Source: Bacteroidota bacterium
Lineage (GTDB): Bacteria; Bacteroidota; Bacteroidia; Bacteroidales; B18-G4
Length of the DNA stretch: 40,302 nucleotides
Reading direction: 5' to 3'
NCBI GenBank assembly: GCA_018831055.1
Contig: JAHJRE010000181.1
Coordinates: 1 to 40,302 of the forward strand
The notes beneath the pieces are model-generated. The model had not been told where the DNA came from. It saw only the letters and a program-made list of their open reading frames with translations, and made no database searches. Positions 16,615-26,830 of this stretch are shown piece by piece; within the stretch, counting starts at the first letter, position 1, and the number at the start of each line of letters is the position of its first letter. Made by a program: the position numbers and the translations under genes.

Positions 16615-18664
16615 TATGATAGATAGTCATAAGCTTTTTCTTGAAGATCTTCTTGATCCGTGTAATTTCTTTCAGGGTAATATTGGAATTGTCAAACTGA
16701 CCCGTTTCAAGTTGCTTATCAATGATGTTATCCACCAGGGCATTGATAGAATCGCTGTCGTATGACTTCAGGCTCCGTGAAGCAGCTTCCACAGAATCTG
16801 CCATCATCAGGATTGCGGTTTCCTTGGAAAACGGAATAGGGCCATGATAGGTAAAATCTCTCTCATCTATCTCCTGGTCGGGAAATTCCTTCTTCTGCAT
16901 TATATAAAAGTATTCCACCTTTCTTGTACCGTGGTGGGTTCTGATAAAATCTATGATCTGCTCAGGCAGCTTATGCTTTTTGGCTTTTTCTATACCTTTG
17001 ATTACATGGCCAATTATTATCCTTGCACTTTCCTCATAGGTGAGTTCATCGTGCGGATTGACCCCTGTAGTCTGATTCTCAATAAAATATACCGGCATGT
17101 CCATTTTGCCAATATCATGGTATAGCGCTCCTGTTCTGACCAACAATGCATTTCCACCGACCTCAAATACAGCTTCTTCCGAAAGATTTGCAACCTGCAG
17201 GGAGTGCTGGAAAGTTCCGGGAGCTTTTAACGACAATTCCCTAAGCAGAGGATTATTAGTATTCGATAACTCTATCAGGGTTACATCGGTTATCAAACCA
17301 AAGAGTTTTTCGAAAATATATATCAGGGGATACGCAAACAAAGTCAGTACTGAATTACCGGCAAAAAAGGCGAAATTCAACGGGGCTATTTCTCTCAGAC
17401 TTCCTTCCTGGATGAGATTTAACCCTGAATAAAGAACAGAATAGGTGAAGAAAATTGAAACAGAAGTCAGGAAAAATTGCGATCTGCGCTGAAGATTAGC
17501 AACAGTGAGAATTGCGCTTATACCCGCCATCATTTGGAGAAAAAGAAACTCAAAACTGTTGGGAACAAGGAAACCTGTAATAATAACTGTAATCAGGTGA
17601 ACATACAGCGCCATCCGAGTGTCGAAAAATGCTCTTACCAGTATGGGTACCAGGCAGAGTGGAACAAGGTAAAGGTATGCAGGATGGTATGTAACAACCA
17701 GACTGGTAATAAACACAAGGAGCAATAAAATAACCAGAATCAGAAGAACTTTTTTATTGTCACGGAATACATCCTTCCGGAAATAATAAAGAAACATAGC
17801 CATTGCCCCCATGGCAATGCTGATCAGGATTATTTGTCCGGCAAGAATGAAATAATATGCCCCGCCGGCACCCAATTGTTCCTCATAATATTTCTTCAAT
17901 GAAATCAACACCTGATACTTTTCGGTTGTAACCAAATCTCCTCTTGAAATTATTTTTTCTCCCGATAACACCATTCCCCGTGTTGGAGAAATTTCCGCCA
18001 GGATTTTTTCTCGCTCGTTAACTGTTTTAATCTCATCAAACAAAACATTATGTTGCAAATGATCAAATAAAAGAACGGAAAGCAACTCATGATCGAAAGT
18101 TGTACCAGGTCTTAACCAGCGGTTAATCAAATCATTGGCTTTATGAATGGTGAGTATACTGTCGGGGTTTGTCTCTTTAGCGATATTCCCCCTGATTAAG
18201 ATAACATTAGCAGGTTTCGTAACAGGATCAAAAACAAAGGCAGGATCATAAATACCTTTATTATATAGCCTGTTAAGGAATAATTCAGCTTTTTCCAGGT
18301 TTCTGTCGTGAGACTGAATCTTCACCGTCGTATCGCCATACCTTTCTATCCAGGCTCTGTTAAACGCTTTGTGAAAATCGGCCCTGATCCGTGGAAAAAT
18401 TGTCGTATCCAGGATAAAGTATGGTTTTGTTTGCCTCAATGCTTCAACCTGTTCTGCTTTTATCTGCTCCTCCGGCTTTAAGATGGAAAAGTCGAACGGG
18501 GCAAAGAAATCTTCGTGAAGCCAGGGTTTATTCCTGGAAAACTCATATTTAAATTTACCCTCTCTCGGGAAAACCAACACCAGGATGACAATAGCAGACA
18601 GAAACAATGCCGTCTTGTAAATATCCTGATACTTGTTGCGAAAAAAATTTAAGAGTTTTCCCAT
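16592..18664 (-). CDS. pgpH: 7TM-HD domain c-di-AMP phosphodiesterase, PgpH family
   Basis: A 690-residue inner-membrane hydrolase that linearises cyclic di-AMP. A first membrane segment (about 17-33) is followed by an extracytoplasmic 7TMR-HDED domain (about 40-265), a block of seven hydrophobic helices (about 270-455), and a cytosolic HD domain. The HD motif is ALYHDIGKMDMP (His516-Asp517), preceded by PGTFQHSLQVANLSEEA and followed by IIIGHVIKGIE, FIRTHHGT and MMADSVEAASRSL, which supply further metal ligands. This order is diagnostic of PgpH/YqfF. With CdaA (5805-6644) the window encodes both making and breaking of the same messenger, though not in one operon. Confidence 0.93.
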   Translation of the reverse strand: MGKLLNFFRNKYQDIYKTALFLSAIVILVLVFPREGKFKYEFSRNKPWLHEDFFAPFDFSILKPEEQIKAEQVEALRQTKPYFILDTTIFPRIRADFHKAFNRAWIERYGDTTVKIQSHDRNLEKAELFLNRLYNKGIYDPAFVFDPVTKPANVILIRGNIAKETNPDSILTIHKANDLINRWLRPGTTFDHELLSVLLFDHLQHNVLFDEIKTVNEREKILAEISPTRGMVLSGEKIISRGDLVTTEKYQVLISLKKYYEEQLGAGGAYYFILAGQIILISIAMGAMAMFLYYFRKDVFRDNKKVLLILVILLLLVFITSLVVTYHPAYLYLVPLCLVPILVRAFFDTRMALYVHLITVIITGFLVPNSFEFLFLQMMAGISAILTVANLQRRSQFFLTSVSIFFTYSVLYSGLNLIQEGSLREIAPLNFAFFAGNSVLTLFAYPLIYIFEKLFGLITDVTLIELSNTNNPLLRELSLKAPGTFQHSLQVANLSEEAVFEVGGNALLVRTGALYHDIGKMDMPVYFIENQTTGVNPHDELTYEESARIIIGHVIKGIEKAKKHKLPEQIIDFIRTHHGTRKVEYFYIMQKKEFPDQEIDERDFTYHGPIPFSKETAILMMADSVEAASRSLKSYDSDSINALVDNIIDKQLETGQFDNSNITLKEITRIKKIFKKKLMTIYHIRIEYPR

Positions 18665-18741
18665 GCTTACCGACTAAACCACGAATATATGAATTTTGTT
18701 GTTATCAATGCTTTCAAGGGGCAATTTGTTCAAGCGATTCA

Positions 18742-18749
18742 TATCTTTG
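18742..18749 (+). promoter_or_regulatory. Candidate -7 box for NlpC/P60 gene
   Basis: TATCTTTG matches TAnnTTTG, 19 bases before the ATG at 18769. A TTTG lies upstream at 18725-18728 but the 13-base spacing is shorter than the usual 18-20, so I mark only the -7 box. Confidence 0.4.
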
Positions 18750-18768
18750 TATCTTCATCCAGGAAAAT

Positions 18769-19542
18769 ATGGAAAAAGGATTTTGCAATATAGCCATGAT
18801 ACCGGTAAGAAGAGAACCTTCACATAAATCGGAATTGGTTACCCAATTGCTCTTCGGAGAGCCTTATCATGTTGATCTTCAGCAAGGGGAATGGCTTTTG
18901 ATCCGTGGAGGATTTGATGATTATCCGGGTTGGATGGATGCTGGTCAGCACGAACCTGTTTCTGAAGAAGGCTTTAATTCATTGATAAAAAGTGAGTGGG
19001 TAGTTTCACAGCATCATTCAATTATAAAGGATACGATGACAGGATTGGATTTTGAAGTATATCCGGGATCTACCATACCGGAAGCGAACTTCAAAATTGG
19101 CAACAGGGTCTATAGCTTTGAAGGAAAGGCTTTACAAAAGAGTGAAGTTCTGCACCCCCGGGAAATAATCCTCCGGATGGCAGGATCATACATCAATTCA
19201 CCGTATTTGTGGGGTGGTCGCACACCTTGTGGTATCGATTGCTCCGGGTTGGTACAGGTACTATTTAAAATTGCAGGCATTAATCTCCCCCGCGATGCTT
19301 TCATGCAGGCCAAACTCGGAGAGGATATCCATTTTATATCCGATGCAGTACCCGGTGATCTTTTGTTCTTCGACAACAACGAAGGAGAAATTGTACACAC
19401 AGGAATTCTTTATAAACCTGATCTTATTCTTCATGCCTCAGGAAGAGTAAGGATCGACAAAGCAGACCATCACGGAATTTTTAGTCTTACCACCGGGAAA
19501 TATACTCATAAGCTCAGGACGATAAAAAAAATCCTCTCATGA
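18769..19542 (+). CDS. NlpC/P60 cysteine peptidase (cytosolic, SH3-containing)
   Basis: A 257-residue protein starting MEKGFCNIAMIPVRREPSHK with no signal peptide. The first ~75 residues form an SH3b-like domain (YHVDLQQGEWLLIRG), a second SH3-like stretch follows, and the NlpC/P60 domain occupies about 130-257. Catalytic residues are the Cys in GIDCSGLVQVLF, the His in EIVHTGILY, and a third polar residue expected near LILHASGRV. The arrangement resembles YkfC-type gamma-D-glutamyl-L-diamino-acid endopeptidases of Bacteroides that process recycled murein peptides in the cytosol. A longer frame from 18607 runs through the divergent PgpH start and the promoter, so 18769 is preferred. Confidence 0.9.
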   Translation: MEKGFCNIAMIPVRREPSHKSELVTQLLFGEPYHVDLQQGEWLLIRGGFDDYPGWMDAGQHEPVSEEGFNSLIKSEWVVSQHHSIIKDTMTGLDFEVYPGSTIPEANFKIGNRVYSFEGKALQKSEVLHPREIILRMAGSYINSPYLWGGRTPCGIDCSGLVQVLFKIAGINLPRDAFMQAKLGEDIHFISDAVPGDLLFFDNNEGEIVHTGILYKPDLILHASGRVRIDKADHHGIFSLTTGKYTHKLRTIKKILS

Positions 19543-19572
19543 TTTGAAATTTAATTTATTCGCATATCTTTG
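19543..19572 (+). promoter_or_regulatory. Promoter of the FMN riboswitch-TonB receptor transcript
   Basis: TTTG (19543-19546), 18 bases, then TATCTTTG (19565-19572): a close fit to the Bacteroidota consensus TTTG-N19-TAnnTTTG. Transcription would begin near 19579, just before the first riboswitch stem. It is the clearest promoter in the window. Confidence 0.75.
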
Positions 19573-19590
19573 CCCCGTTCTTTACTTCAG

Positions 19591-19725
19591 TTTCTTCAGG
19601 GCAGGGTGATCATTGCGCAAGCATGAAATTCCCGACCGGCGGTAACAGTCCGCGACTCCCGAGTTATTCGGGACTGACCCGGTGGAATTCCGGAACCGAC
19701 AGTATAGTCTGGATGGGAGAAGAAA
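19591..19725 (+). ncRNA. FMN riboswitch (RFN element)
   Basis: All landmark segments of the FMN aptamer are present in order. P1 is TTTCTTC (19591-19597) paired with GAAGAAA (19719-19725). Next come AGGGCAGGGTG, an extended P2 hairpin closing at AAATTCCCGACCGGCGGT, AGTCCGCGA, a variable stem with CCCGAG / TTCGGG, then GGTGGAATTCCGG, ACCGACAGTATAGTCTGGATGGGAGAAGA. The usual CGG / CCG near the 3' end reads CAG / CTG, a reciprocal change. It lies between a good promoter and the start of a TonB-dependent receptor gene and should lower expression when FMN is abundant. Riboflavin synthesis genes, its usual targets, are absent here. Confidence 0.93.
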
Positions 19726-19742
19726 TGATCCAAAAGGCCACA

Positions 19743-19814
19743 AGCCTTCTTGGCAACATTTATTTATTTCCCCTGCTCTGAATGAGCAATGTATAATGTT
19801 AAACCAAGAAGGCT
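19743..19814 (+). promoter_or_regulatory. Putative SD-sequestering stem of the FMN riboswitch
   Basis: AGCCTTCTTGG (19743-19753) is perfectly complementary to CCAAGAAGGCT (19804-19814). The second strand contains AGAAGG, an unusually good Shine-Dalgarno for this phylum, 8 bases before the ATG at 19820. The same upstream strand can alternatively pair over 6 bp with the 3' strand of P1 (19717-19722 with 19746-19751). With FMN bound, P1 forms and the SD is hidden; without FMN, P1 is disrupted and the SD is free. The complementarity is seen; the switching mechanism is inferred. Confidence 0.7.
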
Positions 19815-19819
19815 AAATC

Positions 19820-22384
19820 ATGAAAAAGGCATTTCTCTCCATTCTGCTGATCGTTGTTTTTGCAACATTTTCCAACGGGCAAACAAAAGTAAACGGACGG
19901 GTAAGCGATGAGATATCCGGTGATCCGATTTCCGGGGTAAACATCTCAGTCCTGCACACAAATTTGGGCACGAGCACTCAAACCAATGGAAACTTTTCCC
20001 TTGAATTGTCAGATGGAAATTTCGTTGTTGAGTTTTCCTCCGTCGGGTATGTTTCATCACAAAAACAAGTTCAGGTTATGTCAGGTCAGGATATTGACCT
20101 GGGTAACATAAAGCTGAAACCTTTTATAATTGGTCTCCAGGAAGTAAGTATTATCTCATCGGTTGGCCGTGACAGATATACACCGGTCGCAATGTCTACT
20201 ATTCCTTCGGCAAAAATTGAAACCCAACTTGGTGACCAACCCCTGCCTGATATTATGAAAATGGTACCCGGTGTTTATTCCGCGCGCACAGGAGGAGGAA
20301 GTGGCGATGCATCGGTCAGCATCCGCGGTTTTCAGCAGGAAAATGTCGCTCTCCTGCTAAATGGAATCCCTATTGGTAGTGTCGAAAACGGTCTTGTATA
20401 CTGGAATAACTGGCTCGGACTATCCGATGCCACCCAGCAAATCCAGGTGCAAAGAGGATTGGGAGCCTCCAGGGTGGCACTTAACTCTGTCGGTGGTACC
20501 ATTAATATATTAACTCATACTACCGAAGCACCGAAGGGTGGAGTGGTCAGGTATGCAATTACTGACTACGGAAACTCCAGATTCTCCCTGAGTTATAATA
20601 CAGGGAAGCTTAAAAATGGAATGGCCGTTAGTTTTCTGGGTTCCAGAATAAGCGGCCCCGGTTACGTCGATGCAACCTATGTGGATGCCTGGGGATATTT
20701 CTTATCTGTAAGCAAGGAGTTTAACCATAAACATAAATTGGTTTTTGTAGGACTTGGAAACCCGGAAAGGCATGGCCAGCGCAATATTATGCTCACACAG
20801 GCAGAGACCGACCAGTATGGACTGAAATTCAACAAAGACTGGGGAAGCTATAATGGAAAGATAAACAATGCATCCGAAAACTTTTATCACAAACCCCATC
20901 TCAGCCTTAATCATTACTGGAACATTAACGAACGCAGTATGCTTGCAACTTCGATTTACTTCTCAAGCGGAAAAGGCGGGGGTAAGTGGTCTGATAAATT
21001 TATGACAAACCTGGGAATCGGAGGTTACCGCAATCCCTCCAACCAGATCGACTGGGAGAGTATTTACGTTAACAACAATACCCATACCGATTATTATGTC
21101 CTTGCAAACGGTGATACCGTAAGAGGATTTTCCAAAAATATACAAACCAACTTCCTGGCTAGTCATGTCTGGACGGGTATCATTTCCACTCTTGAACATA
21201 AACTGGGAGATAATTTTCAAATCATGGCCGGTATTCATTACCGGTATTTTAAATCTTCATTGCAGCAAAAAGTCAGAGACCTCCTGGGTGGTGATTTCTT
21301 TATTGATAATTATGCATATGCTGTGGATGGCATTGCAGGAAGACAGGAAATCAAAGGAGTCGGTGACGTGATCAAAATAGATAACGGTGCAATCATAAAT
21401 TTCGCAAACCTTTTCGGTCAGGTCGAATATCACCGCAACCGTCTGCATGCTTTCCTTGCAGGAAGCATTTCATCCAACTGGTATCAACGCTATGATCATT
21501 ATAACTATGTAAGCAACCCTGAAAGCAAAGTAGTTGAATTGTGGGGATTCGATGTAAAAGCAGGACTCAATTACAACCTGAATGAATATCATAATGTTTA
21601 CTTTAACACAGGGTATTTCTCAAGAGTGCCTTACTATAAATACATATTTGGAAATTATACCAATGAGCCAACCCTTGAAACCAAAAACGAAAAGATCACT
21701 TCCGCTGAGCTGGGCTATGGATTCAGCCGCAACCTTACGGGGATCAAAGCCAATATATACTACACTTACTGGAAAGACAGATCATTCCTGGCCAACGAAT
21801 ACAATCAGTTTCTTGATCCAGTTATGATCAATGGTTTGGACGCTGAACATTTCGGAGTAGAAATCGAACTTTCACAAGGCTTTGGAAAGTATATAAGTTT
21901 GGGAGGATTGCTCTCCCTCGGTAACTGGCAATGGAAGAATAATGTATCGGCTGAAGTATACGACAACAATAATGTATTACAGGATACCGTGCAAATCTAT
22001 GCCGATGGTCTTTACGTCGGAGACGCTCCACAGGTGCAAACCGGTATCACAGGAAAAGTACAATTCCTGAAAATGTTTGCTTTAACGGCCAATTACATTT
22101 ACTACGACAAGCTGTATGCAGGATTCAATCCTGTATCCAGGAATAACCCGGCTGATACAGAGCAGCCTTATCGGATCCCATCGTATGCCTTGCTTGATTT
22201 GTTTCTGGATGTTAACTTCAAAATTGGATCGCTCCCGGCCGGAATCACAGTAAGTTGCTTTAACGCTTTAAACCACAAGCACATAATCAGAGGGCTCGAC
22301 GGAACATCTCACAATCTGGACACATTCTCCGGGTTTTGGGGATTTGGAAGGAACTTCAGCTTCAGTTTTTCTCTAAGGTTTTAA
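19820..22384 (+). CDS. TonB-dependent outer-membrane receptor under FMN riboswitch control
   Basis: An 854-residue outer-membrane transporter. A signal peptide (about 1-21, ending FSNGQ) is followed by a carboxypeptidase-regulatory-like domain (about 22-105), a plug (about 110-235) with VAMSTIPSAKIE, DIMKMVPGVYSARTGGGSGDASVSIRGF and VENGLVYWNNWLGLSDATQQ, and a 22-strand-type barrel ending FSFSFSLRF with the C-terminal aromatic. No SusD partner is encoded nearby, so it is not a classical glycan locus. The FMN riboswitch directly upstream suggests that the cargo is riboflavin, FMN, FAD or a related flavin. That assignment rests on regulation only; the family itself does not reveal the substrate. 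The next receptor gene is a paralogue. Confidence 0.9.
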   Translation: MKKAFLSILLIVVFATFSNGQTKVNGRVSDEISGDPISGVNISVLHTNLGTSTQTNGNFSLELSDGNFVVEFSSVGYVSSQKQVQVMSGQDIDLGNIKLKPFIIGLQEVSIISSVGRDRYTPVAMSTIPSAKIETQLGDQPLPDIMKMVPGVYSARTGGGSGDASVSIRGFQQENVALLLNGIPIGSVENGLVYWNNWLGLSDATQQIQVQRGLGASRVALNSVGGTINILTHTTEAPKGGVVRYAITDYGNSRFSLSYNTGKLKNGMAVSFLGSRISGPGYVDATYVDAWGYFLSVSKEFNHKHKLVFVGLGNPERHGQRNIMLTQAETDQYGLKFNKDWGSYNGKINNASENFYHKPHLSLNHYWNINERSMLATSIYFSSGKGGGKWSDKFMTNLGIGGYRNPSNQIDWESIYVNNNTHTDYYVLANGDTVRGFSKNIQTNFLASHVWTGIISTLEHKLGDNFQIMAGIHYRYFKSSLQQKVRDLLGGDFFIDNYAYAVDGIAGRQEIKGVGDVIKIDNGAIINFANLFGQVEYHRNRLHAFLAGSISSNWYQRYDHYNYVSNPESKVVELWGFDVKAGLNYNLNEYHNVYFNTGYFSRVPYYKYIFGNYTNEPTLETKNEKITSAELGYGFSRNLTGIKANIYYTYWKDRSFLANEYNQFLDPVMINGLDAEHFGVEIELSQGFGKYISLGGLLSLGNWQWKNNVSAEVYDNNNVLQDTVQIYADGLYVGDAPQVQTGITGKVQFLKMFALTANYIYYDKLYAGFNPVSRNNPADTEQPYRIPSYALLDLFLDVNFKIGSLPAGITVSCFNALNHKHIIRGLDGTSHNLDTFSGFWGFGRNFSFSFSLRF

Positions 22385-22413
22385 AGCTTCAACCCAAGGT
22401 TGATAGCGATAAC

Positions 22414-22577
22414 CAGGCTACAGGCTACAGGCTACAGGTTGCAGGCTACAGGCTACAGGTTGCAGGCTACAGGCTACAGGTTTCAGGTTGCAGGCCTCAC
22501 ACTCACAGCTTGTTCCTCTCGCTCCCTGCAACATGTAACCTGCAACATGTAACCTGCAACCTGCAACCTGCAACCTG
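22414..22577 (+). repeat. Inverted 7-mer repeat element, copy A
   Basis: The left arm (22414-22497) is twelve tandem 7-base units of the type CAGGCTA / CAGGTTG. The right arm (22525-22577) is built from the complementary type (TGCAACC / TGTAACC), so the RNA or single strand could fold into a long hairpin. The loop (22498-22524) carries CACACTCA...TCCTCTCGCTC, which recurs inverted in copy B at 26854-26985. It is located in the otherwise gene-free stretch 22385-22749. The frame through it (GYRLQVAGYRLQ) is a translation artefact. Confidence 0.85.
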
Positions 22578-22749
22578 ACCCAATATTAATTTTTTCTTAA
22601 AAATATAAATTTATACCCCTATATACCAATCACATAGACCATTTTTGCTTATAAAGAATTTAGCAAATTCTTAATATTTTTTTAACTTTCTGCAAATTAT
22701 TCCGTACTACTTTCGTCACAGGAATATTATTAACCAAAAACCCTAAATT
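22578..22749 (+). promoter_or_regulatory. A/T-rich leader with candidate promoter of second TonB receptor
   Basis: This is the rest of the 365-base gene-free stretch after the first receptor. It is strongly A/T-rich. TTTC (22687-22690), 17 bases, then TACTTTCG (22708-22715) approximates the Bacteroidota promoter, with a leader of about 30 bases to the ATG at 22750. I see no second riboswitch here. Confidence 0.45.
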
Positions 22750-25530
22750 ATGAAAAGAAGCAATTATCTGCTCCTCTTGTGCTTTAGTGCACTGTTTCTG
22801 GCTGTGAATATCACCTATGGCCAGGGTACCCTTAAGGGAAAAGTTAAAGATGCATCCAACAACGTACCGCTTTACGGTGCCAGCGTCATGGTAGAAGGAA
22901 CCGCTATCGGGATGGCTACCGATGAAGACGGTGTTTTCATGCTGACACTGGATGCAGGAGTTAAAAAGGTCGTCATTTCCTATGTTGGTTATGAGAAGAT
23001 AACCATGGATGTGACGATCCAGAACGGACAGGTCACCGATGCAGGGACCATCAGGCTGGAGCCTATGGCTATCGGTATGGCCGGTATTCTTATTGTTTCC
23101 GATCGTGCCCGCGATCGTGAGACTCCGGTTGCCATGAGTAACATTGAAAAGAAGGAAATCGTCGACAGGCTTGGCTCAAGGGATATCCCTCTTATCCTGA
23201 ACACCACTCCCAGCGTTTATGCTACCGCTCAAGGTGGTGGCGCCGGAGATGCCAGGATCAATGTCAGGGGTTTCAACCAGAGGAATGTAGCCATCATGAT
23301 CAACGGTGTTCCCGTTAACGACATGGAAAACGGCTGGGTCTACTGGTCAAACTGGGACGGTATTTCCGATGCTACCTCTTCTATTCAGGTACAGCGTGGT
23401 TTGAGTGCCGTAAACCTTGCTACCCCTTCTATCGGAGGTACCATGAACGTGATCACCAGCCCCTCCGAAATGAAAGGTGGTGCCAGCGGCCGTTTTGAAG
23501 TAGGAAGCGGCAACTTTATGAAAACCACCATTTCAGCCAACACAGGCCTCATTGGCGGTAAATTTGCCATGAGCGCCAGCGTGGTCAGGAAAGTTGGAAA
23601 CGGTATCATTGATGGTACATGGACAGATGCATGGGCCTATTACCTCGGCGCCAGCTACAATATTAACAAAAACCACCGCCTGGAAGTCTATGCAATGGGA
23701 GCTCCGCAAAAACACGGACAAAATATCTACAAGCAAAATATTGCAACCTACAGTCATGACTATGCAAAGTCCGTCCCCGGATATGATACCATGGCGTTCA
23801 CAAAATTTAAAGAACAAAGCTGGAGATACAACCAAAACTGGGGTCCGGTGATTTCCACCTATAACGGAAAACAGGCTTACAACGGAAAAACCGACCATGA
23901 TCGCTACTCCCCTACTATCCTGAATGAAAGGGAAAACTACTATCACAAACCTCTGGCCAACCTGAACTGGTATGCCCAGTGGAACAAGAAAGTCAGCCAG
24001 TTTACCACTGTTTATTACTCTGGTGGTAAAGGCGGTGGCTCCGGTACGGCAGGATCCCTTTTCAGAAGAGATGCTGACGGAGTCCTGGGAGGAAAAGATT
24101 ATAAATACTATTATGGACCCAGCCCGTGGTCATGGGATTTCACCGAAACTGTCCTGGCTAACCAAAGCAATGAAGACACCATATGGATCGATAAAAAAGC
24201 TATCGTTCGCAAGCAGGGCCAATCCGTTGGTATCCTCAGGAACAGCGTTAACAACCAATGGACCATCGGTGCCATTTCAAAAGTGAAAGTTGAATGGTCA
24301 GATGTTTTCCGCACAACCATTGGTATTGACTGGAGAACCGCTGAAATCGAACATTACCGTGAAGTACGTGACCTTCTGGGTGGTATGTATTTCATGGATA
24401 ATTCTGATGAATTCAATCCTAACAGACAAGTAGTTCTGGGTGATAAGATCGCCTATAACTTCACCAATAATGTGAACTGGATTGGCGGTTTCCTGCAAGG
24501 CGAATACCATACTGAACTTATTACCGCTTACGCTACAGTTGGTTATTCCACTATTAAATACAAACACAGAAACCATTTCACGAAATCCAAAACCGATCCG
24601 ACACAACAACTGGAAATAGAAGCCGATCCTATTGCAGGATACCAGGCTAAAGGTGGTATAAGCTATAAGGCTTCCAGCACAATTACGGTTTTCGGTAATG
24701 TTGGTTATGTTAGCAAGGTGCCGATCTTCGACGCTGTCATCAATGATAATACCCATGAATTGATCGATGACCCGACAAATGAAAAATTCATCTCCGGTGA
24801 AATCGGCATGAACTTCCGTTCAAACGATGAGAAATTCAATGCTAATGTCAACCTTTACCATACCAACTGGAACGACAGGGTTATCACCGACCCGTATTAT
24901 AGTATTGATAATAACGAAGGTATATTTGTCATCAATGATCTGGACGCTATCCATCAGGGTATTGAGGCCGACCTGGCACTTCAGCCCAACAAGTATTTCA
25001 GGATTGATGGTGCTTTTTCGATCGGCAACTGGAAACAGACCAACGACCCCAAAGCTACTCTGAAAAGGTACGAAGAAAACCTTCCGGATACATCCTTTAC
25101 CATTTATGTAAAGGATCTGAAAACCGGTGATGCTCCTCAGACTCAGTTTGCTTTGTCGGGAACCGTATTTCCTGCTAAAGGACTTTATATCACCCTTTCC
25201 ATGAAACACTTCGCCGATATGTATGCCGACTGGAATGTTATCAACCGTACTGACCCCAATGACAGAACCCAAAGCTGGAAGACTCCGGCATACACGGTTT
25301 TTGACCTGCACGTTGGATACACATTGCCAACCGGTCCTAAATACAAAGTGCAGCTTTTTGCACACATCTTTAACCTGTTTAATACTATGTATATCCAGGA
25401 TGCAGTGGATAACAGCCAGTACAATTCATATATGGGTGCTGATAACCGCAACACCCACAGTGCAGCTGCCGCTGAGGTATACCTCGGATTACCCAGGTGG
25501 TTCAACACAGGTATTCAGCTTTCTTTCTAA
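22750..25530 (+). CDS. TonB-dependent outer-membrane receptor, paralogue of the preceding one
   Basis: A 926-residue receptor. The signal peptide ends near NITYGQ; a carboxypeptidase-regulatory-like domain follows (about 27-110, KGKVKDASNNVPLYGASV). The plug has VAMSNIEKKEIVDRLGSRDI, VYATAQGGGAGDARINVRGF and MENGWVYWSNWDGISDATSS, matching the first receptor almost block for block. The barrel ends GIQLSF. The plug is strongly conserved between the two, while the barrel differs in length by about 70 residues, suggesting a related but distinct cargo. It has its own likely promoter and no riboswitch or SusD partner. A terminator-like hairpin and an NPP lipoprotein gene follow. Confidence 0.9.
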   Translation: MKRSNYLLLLCFSALFLAVNITYGQGTLKGKVKDASNNVPLYGASVMVEGTAIGMATDEDGVFMLTLDAGVKKVVISYVGYEKITMDVTIQNGQVTDAGTIRLEPMAIGMAGILIVSDRARDRETPVAMSNIEKKEIVDRLGSRDIPLILNTTPSVYATAQGGGAGDARINVRGFNQRNVAIMINGVPVNDMENGWVYWSNWDGISDATSSIQVQRGLSAVNLATPSIGGTMNVITSPSEMKGGASGRFEVGSGNFMKTTISANTGLIGGKFAMSASVVRKVGNGIIDGTWTDAWAYYLGASYNINKNHRLEVYAMGAPQKHGQNIYKQNIATYSHDYAKSVPGYDTMAFTKFKEQSWRYNQNWGPVISTYNGKQAYNGKTDHDRYSPTILNERENYYHKPLANLNWYAQWNKKVSQFTTVYYSGGKGGGSGTAGSLFRRDADGVLGGKDYKYYYGPSPWSWDFTETVLANQSNEDTIWIDKKAIVRKQGQSVGILRNSVNNQWTIGAISKVKVEWSDVFRTTIGIDWRTAEIEHYREVRDLLGGMYFMDNSDEFNPNRQVVLGDKIAYNFTNNVNWIGGFLQGEYHTELITAYATVGYSTIKYKHRNHFTKSKTDPTQQLEIEADPIAGYQAKGGISYKASSTITVFGNVGYVSKVPIFDAVINDNTHELIDDPTNEKFISGEIGMNFRSNDEKFNANVNLYHTNWNDRVITDPYYSIDNNEGIFVINDLDAIHQGIEADLALQPNKYFRIDGAFSIGNWKQTNDPKATLKRYEENLPDTSFTIYVKDLKTGDAPQTQFALSGTVFPAKGLYITLSMKHFADMYADWNVINRTDPNDRTQSWKTPAYTVFDLHVGYTLPTGPKYKVQLFAHIFNLFNTMYIQDAVDNSQYNSYMGADNRNTHSAAAAEVYLGLPRWFNTGIQLSF

Positions 25531-25547
25531 TGCATAACTTATCCAAA

Positions 25548-25580
25548 AAAATCCCCGGCGCCGCCAGGCCCGGGGATTTT
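25548..25580 (+). terminator. Terminator-like hairpin between TonB receptor and NPP gene
   Basis: AAAATCCCCGG (25548-25558) pairs with CCGGGGATTTT (25570-25580) around an 11-base loop. The T tract is short (TTTTGCTTT), so it may terminate only partly. It sits in a 67-base spacer, where a fresh promoter for the NPP gene would have little room, so read-through is plausible. Confidence 0.7.
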
Positions 25581-25597
25581 GCTTTATCTAATAGATC

Positions 25598-26830
25598 ATG
25601 AAAAAACTGAGAATATTACCGGCAATATTTTTAATCCTGCTCCTGAGCAGCTGTAGTAATAAAAATCAAACACCTGAACCAAATTATGTTGTTGTAGTCT
25701 CACTCGACGGCTTCCGCTGGAATTACCATGAAAACGCCAATACGCCGGTTATGGATTCGATAGCGAATGCAGGCGTTAAAGCCAAATCTCTTATCCCTTC
25801 ATTCCCTTCCAAAACGTTTCCCAACCACTATTCTCTTGCAACCGGACTATATCCCGACCATCATGGCATAGTCCAAAACAGCTTTTATGATCCCGACCTT
25901 GACAGGTATTATGAGATCCGCAACAGGGAAGCTGTATCCGACAGCACTTTCTATGGTGGTGAACCTATCTGGGTAAGTGCTGAAAAGCAAGGGGTAAAAA
26001 CAGCTTCTTTCTATTGGGTCGGATCGGAAGCGCCTGTTGGAGGAAAACATCCCACTTACTGGAAAAAGTACAAACATAGTTTCCCATTTGAACAAAGGAT
26101 AGACACGGTCATATCGTGGCTAAACCTACCTGAAGAAATAAGACCAAGACTGGTTTTGCTTTATTTCCATGAACCCGACCATGTGGGCCATGTTTTCGGT
26201 CCCGATTCCGATTCTGTCAGAGTGACCGTAGAATACCTCGACAGCCTGATGGGTGTTCTTAGCAAAAAAATCAATTCTCTCGAAATAGCCGGCAATATAA
26301 ATCTGATCATCCTTTCAGATCATGGTATGGGCTGGGTTGATCCGGAAAAAACGGTCTTCCTGGCAGATCACATTGATACAAATTGGTTCGAAACAATTCA
26401 GGGATGGAATCCCAATTTCTGCTTTAAAGTAAAACCGGAATATTATGATACCGCCTTTAACTCCTTAAAAAGAACCCCTCATATACAAGTTTGGAAACAC
26501 GGTGAAGTACCGGAAAAATTTCATTACGGAACCCATCCCAGAACACTTGATTTTATTGTGGTTGCCGATCCGGGTTGCTGTGTGATGCTAAAAGAAGGGT
26601 TTTATCAATCCCCCGGAGCCCATGGATATGATAACTTTCATAGAGATATGCACGCAATATTTATGGCATCCGGACCCGATTTCCGTAAAGGATACATAGG
26701 ACCCAGCTTCTCAAACATCCACGTTTATCCTTTGCTTGCAACCATTTTAGGCCTAACCCCGGCCCCGGTGGATGGGAAGAAAGACAGCATAGTGAATCTG
26801 CTGGATCCGCAAAAATATAGCGCTGAATGA
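25598..26830 (+). CDS. Nucleotide pyrophosphatase/phosphodiesterase (NPP) family lipoprotein
   Basis: A 410-residue enzyme of the alkaline-phosphatase superfamily. The lipoprotein signal (RILPAIFLILLLSSCS) puts lipidated Cys19 in the envelope. Metal ligands and nucleophile fit NPPs: Asp37 in VVSLDGFRWNY, Thr73 in PSFPSKTFPNHYSLATGLYP, the EPDHVGHVFGPDS motif, LSDHGMGW and the late His in GAHGYDN. NPPs cleave nucleotide pyrophosphate bonds, and mammalian members are known to split dinucleotides including FAD. Next to a flavin-regulated receptor, cleavage of extracellular FAD to FMN and AMP is an attractive but untested role; scavenging of nucleotides in general is the safer reading. Confidence 0.9.
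   Translation: MKKLRILPAIFLILLLSSCSNKNQTPEPNYVVVVSLDGFRWNYHENANTPVMDSIANAGVKAKSLIPSFPSKTFPNHYSLATGLYPDHHGIVQNSFYDPDLDRYYEIRNREAVSDSTFYGGEPIWVSAEKQGVKTASFYWVGSEAPVGGKHPTYWKKYKHSFPFEQRIDTVISWLNLPEEIRPRLVLLYFHEPDHVGHVFGPDSDSVRVTVEYLDSLMGVLSKKINSLEIAGNINLIILSDHGMGWVDPEKTVFLADHIDTNWFETIQGWNPNFCFKVKPEYYDTAFNSLKRTPHIQVWKHGEVPEKFHYGTHPRTLDFIVVADPGCCVMLKEGFYQSPGAHGYDNFHRDMHAIFMASGPDFRKGYIGPSFSNIHVYPLLATILGLTPAPVDGKKDSIVNLLDPQKYSAE

Follow-up and report, generated by a model that had tools for sequence, protein, structure and literature searches.

The question raised by this locus is what an outer-membrane receptor would bring into the cell when its gene is preceded by an FMN riboswitch aptamer. The window (the whole stretch of 40,302 nucleotides analyzed here) encodes a TonB-dependent outer-membrane receptor of 854 residues, T1 (19820-22384, forward strand), which we propose is a flavin transporter based on its Pfam domains, its AlphaFold model and its conserved pairing with the aptamer. 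The aptamer (19588-19728, forward strand) ends 92 nt ahead of the start of T1 and matched RF00050 over model positions 1-138 of 138 with 99.8 bits (E 3.9e-22), clearing the gathering score of 66.2 bits over the full model. The 4.19-Mb assembly (342 contigs) contains no other FMN aptamer. A Bacteroidota-type promoter could be read in the sequence ahead of it (19543-19572, forward strand), consisting of TTTG (19543-19546), 18 nt and TATCTTTG (19565-19572), and a TAnnTTTG box was found 5' of the aptamer in nearly all the relatives.

Analyses of the T1 protein identified a CarboxypepD_reg-like domain and a Plug domain (PF07715, E 7.8e-14), and PF00593 was under threshold in the Pfam search. The AlphaFold model (pLDDT 86, pTM 0.82) has a plug and a barrel and aligned with BtuB, FhuA, FecA and PqqU. 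T1 has the architecture of a TonB-dependent transporter, a Plug and then a beta-barrel, the latter as predicted by the model. It scored far below the cut-offs of two named classes, with 58.7 bits against 368 for SusC/RagA (TIGR04056) and 35.8 bits against 599.7 for BtuB/TonB-B12 (TIGR01779). The residues that are constant in T1 and differ in its sister receptors include W412, A447, S479, Y498, R508, F836 and W840, and these positions are candidates for cargo recognition. The ranking of structural matches, in which PqqU was first in Foldseek and BtuB first in VIA-align, was set aside as a clue to the cargo because TonB-dependent transporters all share this fold. These results bore out the initial annotation, made from the letters alone, in its description of a complete FMN aptamer behind a near-consensus promoter and ahead of a TonB-dependent receptor; its statement that no rib gene lies around the receptor also held, as none adjoins T1 by domain annotation.

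Folding of the leader revealed an 11-bp hairpin (19743-19814, forward strand) formed by AGCCTTCTTGG (19743-19753) and CCAAGAAGGCT (19804-19814), which is the putative expression platform. The 3' arm of this hairpin contains AGAAGG, 7 nt ahead of the T1 ATG, and a hairpin in this position points to translational control in the window. A candidate alternative pairing segment, CCCTGCTCTGAA (19771-19782, forward strand), is complementary, with one G-U, to the aptamer 5' strand TTCAGGGCAGGG (19595-19606). This CCCUGCUCUGAA segment could form that pairing when FMN is absent, and segments resembling it were present in some of the relatives. Many relatives have a GC-rich hairpin and a T-run between the aptamer and the start codon, by appearance an intrinsic terminator. 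Based on the known behavior of FMN riboswitches, we infer that the leader is an OFF switch: when FMN is abundant in the cell, the aptamer would fold and the leader would switch the T1 gene off, through the hairpin masking the ribosome-binding site in the window and through an intrinsic terminator in most relatives. A drop in FMN would then lead to production of the receptor, and the riboflavin brought in would be turned into FMN and FAD via RibF.

The value of this single locus depends on whether its arrangement recurs. In a first set of 60 relatives, an aptamer was present in 15, the window's own not counted; nine of these aptamers lie ahead of T1 orthologues, from the family of the window and four others, and six ahead of rib genes. 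A named set comprised 80 loci encoding T1 relatives, drawn from a collection with one genome per species, and was scanned with a covariance model built from 13 aptamers (the window's and those of 12 relatives); the scores of these 13 species are high by construction, those of the remaining species are not. An aptamer was upstream in 50 of the 80 loci, its end 53-311 nt ahead of the receptor, and was unseen in the other 30, a few of which have little upstream sequence. In a tree of 79 proteins, one fully supported clade (the T1 clade) had the aptamer in 47 of its 48 members, and the contig of the lone exception ends 174 nt upstream of the receptor. One T1-clade receptor of a smaller tree (G007) lacked an aptamer in the 1.4 kb upstream, which counts against strict conservation. 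An aptamer-bearing receptor outside the T1 clade (L106, genome G058) was placed beside an aptamer-less Marinifilum receptor and is, judged from the tree, a second, separate association of aptamer and receptor. The frequency of aptamers ahead of receptors of this family, proposed in the initial annotation as a check, was thus strongly positive.

These counts also bear on whether the junction of aptamer and receptor could be due to chance or an assembly artefact. The assembly is split into 342 contigs, of which the window is one (40 kb), and the related genomes are mostly metagenome-assembled, but dozens of genomes from many families, each assembled separately, have the same junction, and this conservation has already refuted such an origin. 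A scan of the sister receptors for other riboswitches able to name a cargo found none. Behind the aptamer-less sister receptors there is usually a lipoprotein gene (21 loci, L125:7541 and 20 others), which none of the aptamer-bearing receptors has; the lipoprotein has no Pfam match, and the two form an uncharacterised receptor-lipoprotein pair.

To see what lies behind the aptamer at the level of the order, a strict FMN core pattern was searched for in 393 Bacteroidales genomes; as variant cores are missed by this pattern, the result is a sample. The pattern search replaced a class-wide RF00050 search (396 genomes) in which only eight candidates were scored per genome, making it worthless as a negative. 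The pattern matched 54 of the 393 genomes, with one aptamer each, and the core was followed by a T1-type receptor in 33, by a ribD-ribE-ribBA-ribH operon in 20 and by a contig end in one. None of the 54 had both a T1-type receptor and the rib operon.

The genomes with the aptamer and T1 were also found to be deficient in riboflavin synthesis, as read from draft assemblies. The window assembly lacks RibH, RibE and RibB and has kept the flavokinase RibF. In the first set, RibH (PF00885) was missing in all 10 FMN-T1 genomes (the window's and those of nine relatives) and in only nine of the remaining genomes (Fisher p 1e-6; 2e-4 with one count per family, the family count being the sole correction for kinship in the RibH comparisons). 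RibE (PF00677) and RibB (PF00926) were absent from all ten FMN-T1 genomes examined. In the named set, 48 of 50 FMN-T1 genomes (a count that includes the window genome) had no RibH, versus 4 of the 27 genomes whose T1 relative is aptamer-less, RibH being present in the other 23 (Fisher p 1.9e-13). The two comparisons overlap and are not independent, as six loci (L064, L066, L071, L094, L097 and L106) appear to be of species also in the first set. RibF (PF01687) was identified in 49 of the 50 FMN-T1 genomes. As RibF is kept with the synthesis genes missing, these cells can still turn riboflavin into FMN and the riboflavin must come from outside, the profile of genomes that need a riboflavin transporter. 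Many FMN-T1 genomes (e.g., G455, G458 and G461) have a second, more divergent RibF-like flavokinase gene.

There were exceptions in both directions. Two genomes with the aptamer and T1 (L077 in G465 and L098 in G486) have retained RibH, indicating that T1 is able to coexist with riboflavin synthesis. One genome (G024) is without RibH and RibE, has RibB and had no FMN aptamer found; it is possibly an auxotroph with another uptake route. Several relatives without RibH had no detected FMN aptamer, indicating that other uptake routes or assembly gaps exist.

The relationship between receptor and operon was seen most directly where the two occupy one chromosomal site. Two genomes of one genus (g273), G551 and G650, both have an NlpC/P60 gene, the promoter and the aptamer, followed by T1 in G551 versus the rib operon in G650, and then by the same T2, a second TonB-dependent receptor with 91% protein identity between the two. 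The two are homologous at the DNA level up to and including the aptamer; the similarity declines within the terminator leader and returns ahead of T2. In a second genus (g310), the rib operon of G588 and the T1 gene of G762 both come after the same WbqC-like, 7TM-HD and NlpC/P60 genes, and a further member, G684, has a truncated T1 at that same site. The upstream gene order of the window is the same. Its NlpC/P60 endopeptidase (18607-19542, forward strand; Pfam) is the conserved upstream neighbor marking the site, being in the same place in T1 loci and some rib-operon loci, and among the rib-operon loci examined, four have NlpC/P60 ahead of the aptamer. Judged from these draft assemblies, T1 and the rib operon appear to be swapped in place behind the same aptamer in both genera. 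The truncated receptor of G684 (L235, one of the 33 in the survey) is shortened to its N-terminal part (+228 to +1493 from the aptamer core) and is followed by a T2-like receptor and an ENPP-like enzyme. An aptamer ahead of such a shortened receptor counts against flavin import as the function of T1.

Since the aptamer controls T1 across dozens of species of Bacteroidales whose genes for vitamin B2 synthesis have been lost, the substrate that T1 brings in through the outer membrane is very probably riboflavin or a related flavin, with FMN repressing the receptor; we infer the cargo, the direction of transport and the inner-membrane step. The initial annotation had reasoned from FMN regulation to flavin uptake, and this reasoning gained support from the conserved pairing, the lost synthesis, the kept RibF and the interchange with the rib operon. 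An improbable alternative is that T1 carries something other than a flavin, such as an iron chelate or another nutrient needed variably with FMN, and that FMN control is a metabolic cross-signal. The solved TonB-dependent transporters that match the T1 model do carry mostly iron complexes or cobalamin, and a regulatory link between riboflavin and iron has been described in Vibrio cholerae (PMC5816637). A cross-signal, however, predicts neither that T1 should coincide with lost riboflavin synthesis nor that it should stand in for the rib operon behind the same aptamer. A point against uptake through T1 is that porins might also let riboflavin, at 376 Da, into the cell.

If the cargo is a flavin, regulation alone cannot separate riboflavin, FMN and FAD, and riboflavin is favored because RibF has been kept. 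Downstream of T1 are T2 (22750-25530, forward strand; Pfam), which is ~30-32% identical to T1, has no aptamer and adjoins T1 in several relatives, and an ENPP/NPP-like nucleotide pyrophosphatase/phosphodiesterase (25598-26830, forward strand; PF01663; solved relatives, 2gsn E 4e-73). The latter, two genes downstream of T1, leaves FAD open as a cargo, and it is possible, speculatively, that this neighbor is a flavin-nucleotide hydrolase. T1 would then mainly carry flavin nucleotides (FAD or FMN) in place of free riboflavin, and FAD would be split in the periplasm by the ENPP-like enzyme. The product of 25598-26830 is closely related to nucleotide pyrophosphatases and its gene recurs near T1 in 12 loci, but the enzyme and T2 are absent beside many T1 loci, the window gene sits behind T2 and is not the gene that the aptamer itself precedes, and G650 has kept T2 with no T1 present, and we regard nucleotides as the less likely main cargo. 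That T1 imports another member or analogue of the flavin pathway, such as a lumazine precursor or lumichrome, is permitted by FMN regulation on its own but is very improbable, as RibE and RibH are missing, so that a lumazine precursor is not convertible to riboflavin, and RibF is kept. The T2 and ENPP-like pair (22750-26830), which has no aptamer itself, recurs beside T1 in several genomes. Between T1 and T2 is a run (22410-22580) of short direct repeats (caggctacaggttgcaggctacagg) and their inverted forms.

Riboflavin import by T1 would also involve a carrier in the inner membrane, and none was identified for the T1 genomes, which counts against our reading. PnuC was dropped as a candidate partner; in the window genome (L151) and in G054 (L145), it adjoins a gene whose sequence looks like that of a nicotinamide riboside kinase, and no riboswitch was near PnuC in the nine loci scanned. 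An MFS transporter 3' of one T1 subgroup (12 loci) was also dropped, with a gene on the opposite strand often lying between the two.

Based on these observations, we think it probable, with less assurance than for flavin import itself, that T1 is the founding member of a first family of flavin transporters in the outer membrane and that Bacteroidales chromosomes have a slot for flavin supply, marked by the FMN aptamer. In this slot, either the rib operon or the receptor could stand behind a single sensor, and a species would change between making the vitamin and scavenging it through an exchange of the gene, with the riboswitch retained. If this is correct, riboflavin would be scarce enough in the habitats of many uncultured Bacteroidales to require active uptake, the signature of gene plus aptamer would flag riboflavin scavengers in metagenomes, and cross-feeding of vitamin B2 would become directly testable. 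The swaps in g273 and g310 would be a natural experiment on the evolution of auxotrophy.

The named riboflavin importers in the literature searched are in the inner membrane (PMC3766115, PMC6593275). Rodionov et al. (2019; PMC6593275) list RibU, PnuX, ImpX, RibN, RfnT, RibZ and RibXY, and the FMN regulon survey of Sun et al. (2013; PMC3766115) has none in Bacteroidaceae and does not mention TonB or outer-membrane genes. In the available part of PMC4418817, a riboflavin transporter survey from 2015, the words outer, porin and Bacteroid- are absent, and flavins go unmentioned in a 2024 review on TonB-dependent uptake. Papers joining "FMN riboswitch" and "TonB", including those on E. coli btuB and Caulobacter IscR, do not describe a receptor like T1 in the portions available. 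The initial annotation knew of no characterised TonB-dependent receptor for riboflavin or FMN in Bacteroidota, and our search agreed, finding no published outer-membrane flavin receptor controlled by an FMN riboswitch in the accessible text of mainly open-access literature, so that priority is unproven.

RibU, PnuX/RibM and RibXY are similar to T1 in having an FMN aptamer before a transporter gene, and in one RibXY case the FMN-controlled transporter compensates for a missing rib operon (PMC3766115); however, their products cross the cytoplasmic membrane and T1 is in the outer membrane. The nearest precedent for T1 is OMthi/BT2390 of Bacteroides thetaiotaomicron, likewise a TonB-dependent receptor of the Bacteroidota for a B vitamin, thiamin, whose homologue in Caldithrix has a TPP riboswitch upstream (PMC6977713; PMC5317091). 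The logic of the two is alike in that the riboswitch senses the cofactor made from the imported vitamin, thiamin and TPP for OMthi and a flavin and FMN for T1. Unlike OMthi, T1 has neither an inner-membrane transporter nor a kinase beside it, and it lacks the partner lipoprotein of its sister family. BtuB is the cobalamin receptor and is under a cobalamin riboswitch. It shares with T1 a vitamin as the cargo (proposed for T1), the riboswitch logic and the fold of TonB-dependent transporters, being the best match in VIA-align (Z 37, 2.5 A over 531 residues), but the two are 14% identical, the aptamer of T1 is for FMN and not cobalamin, and T1 is far under the BtuB/TonB-B12 cut-offs. PqqU/YncD, the first Foldseek match to the T1 model (9c4o, 6v81), is a TonB-dependent transporter for PQQ, a small aromatic redox cofactor; it has 14% sequence identity to T1, and the rank of the match says nothing firm on the cargo. 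We know of no FMN riboswitch for PqqU/YncD. TonB-dependent transporters for vitamins under riboswitch control are therefore already known, and what would be new in T1 is a flavin as the cargo.
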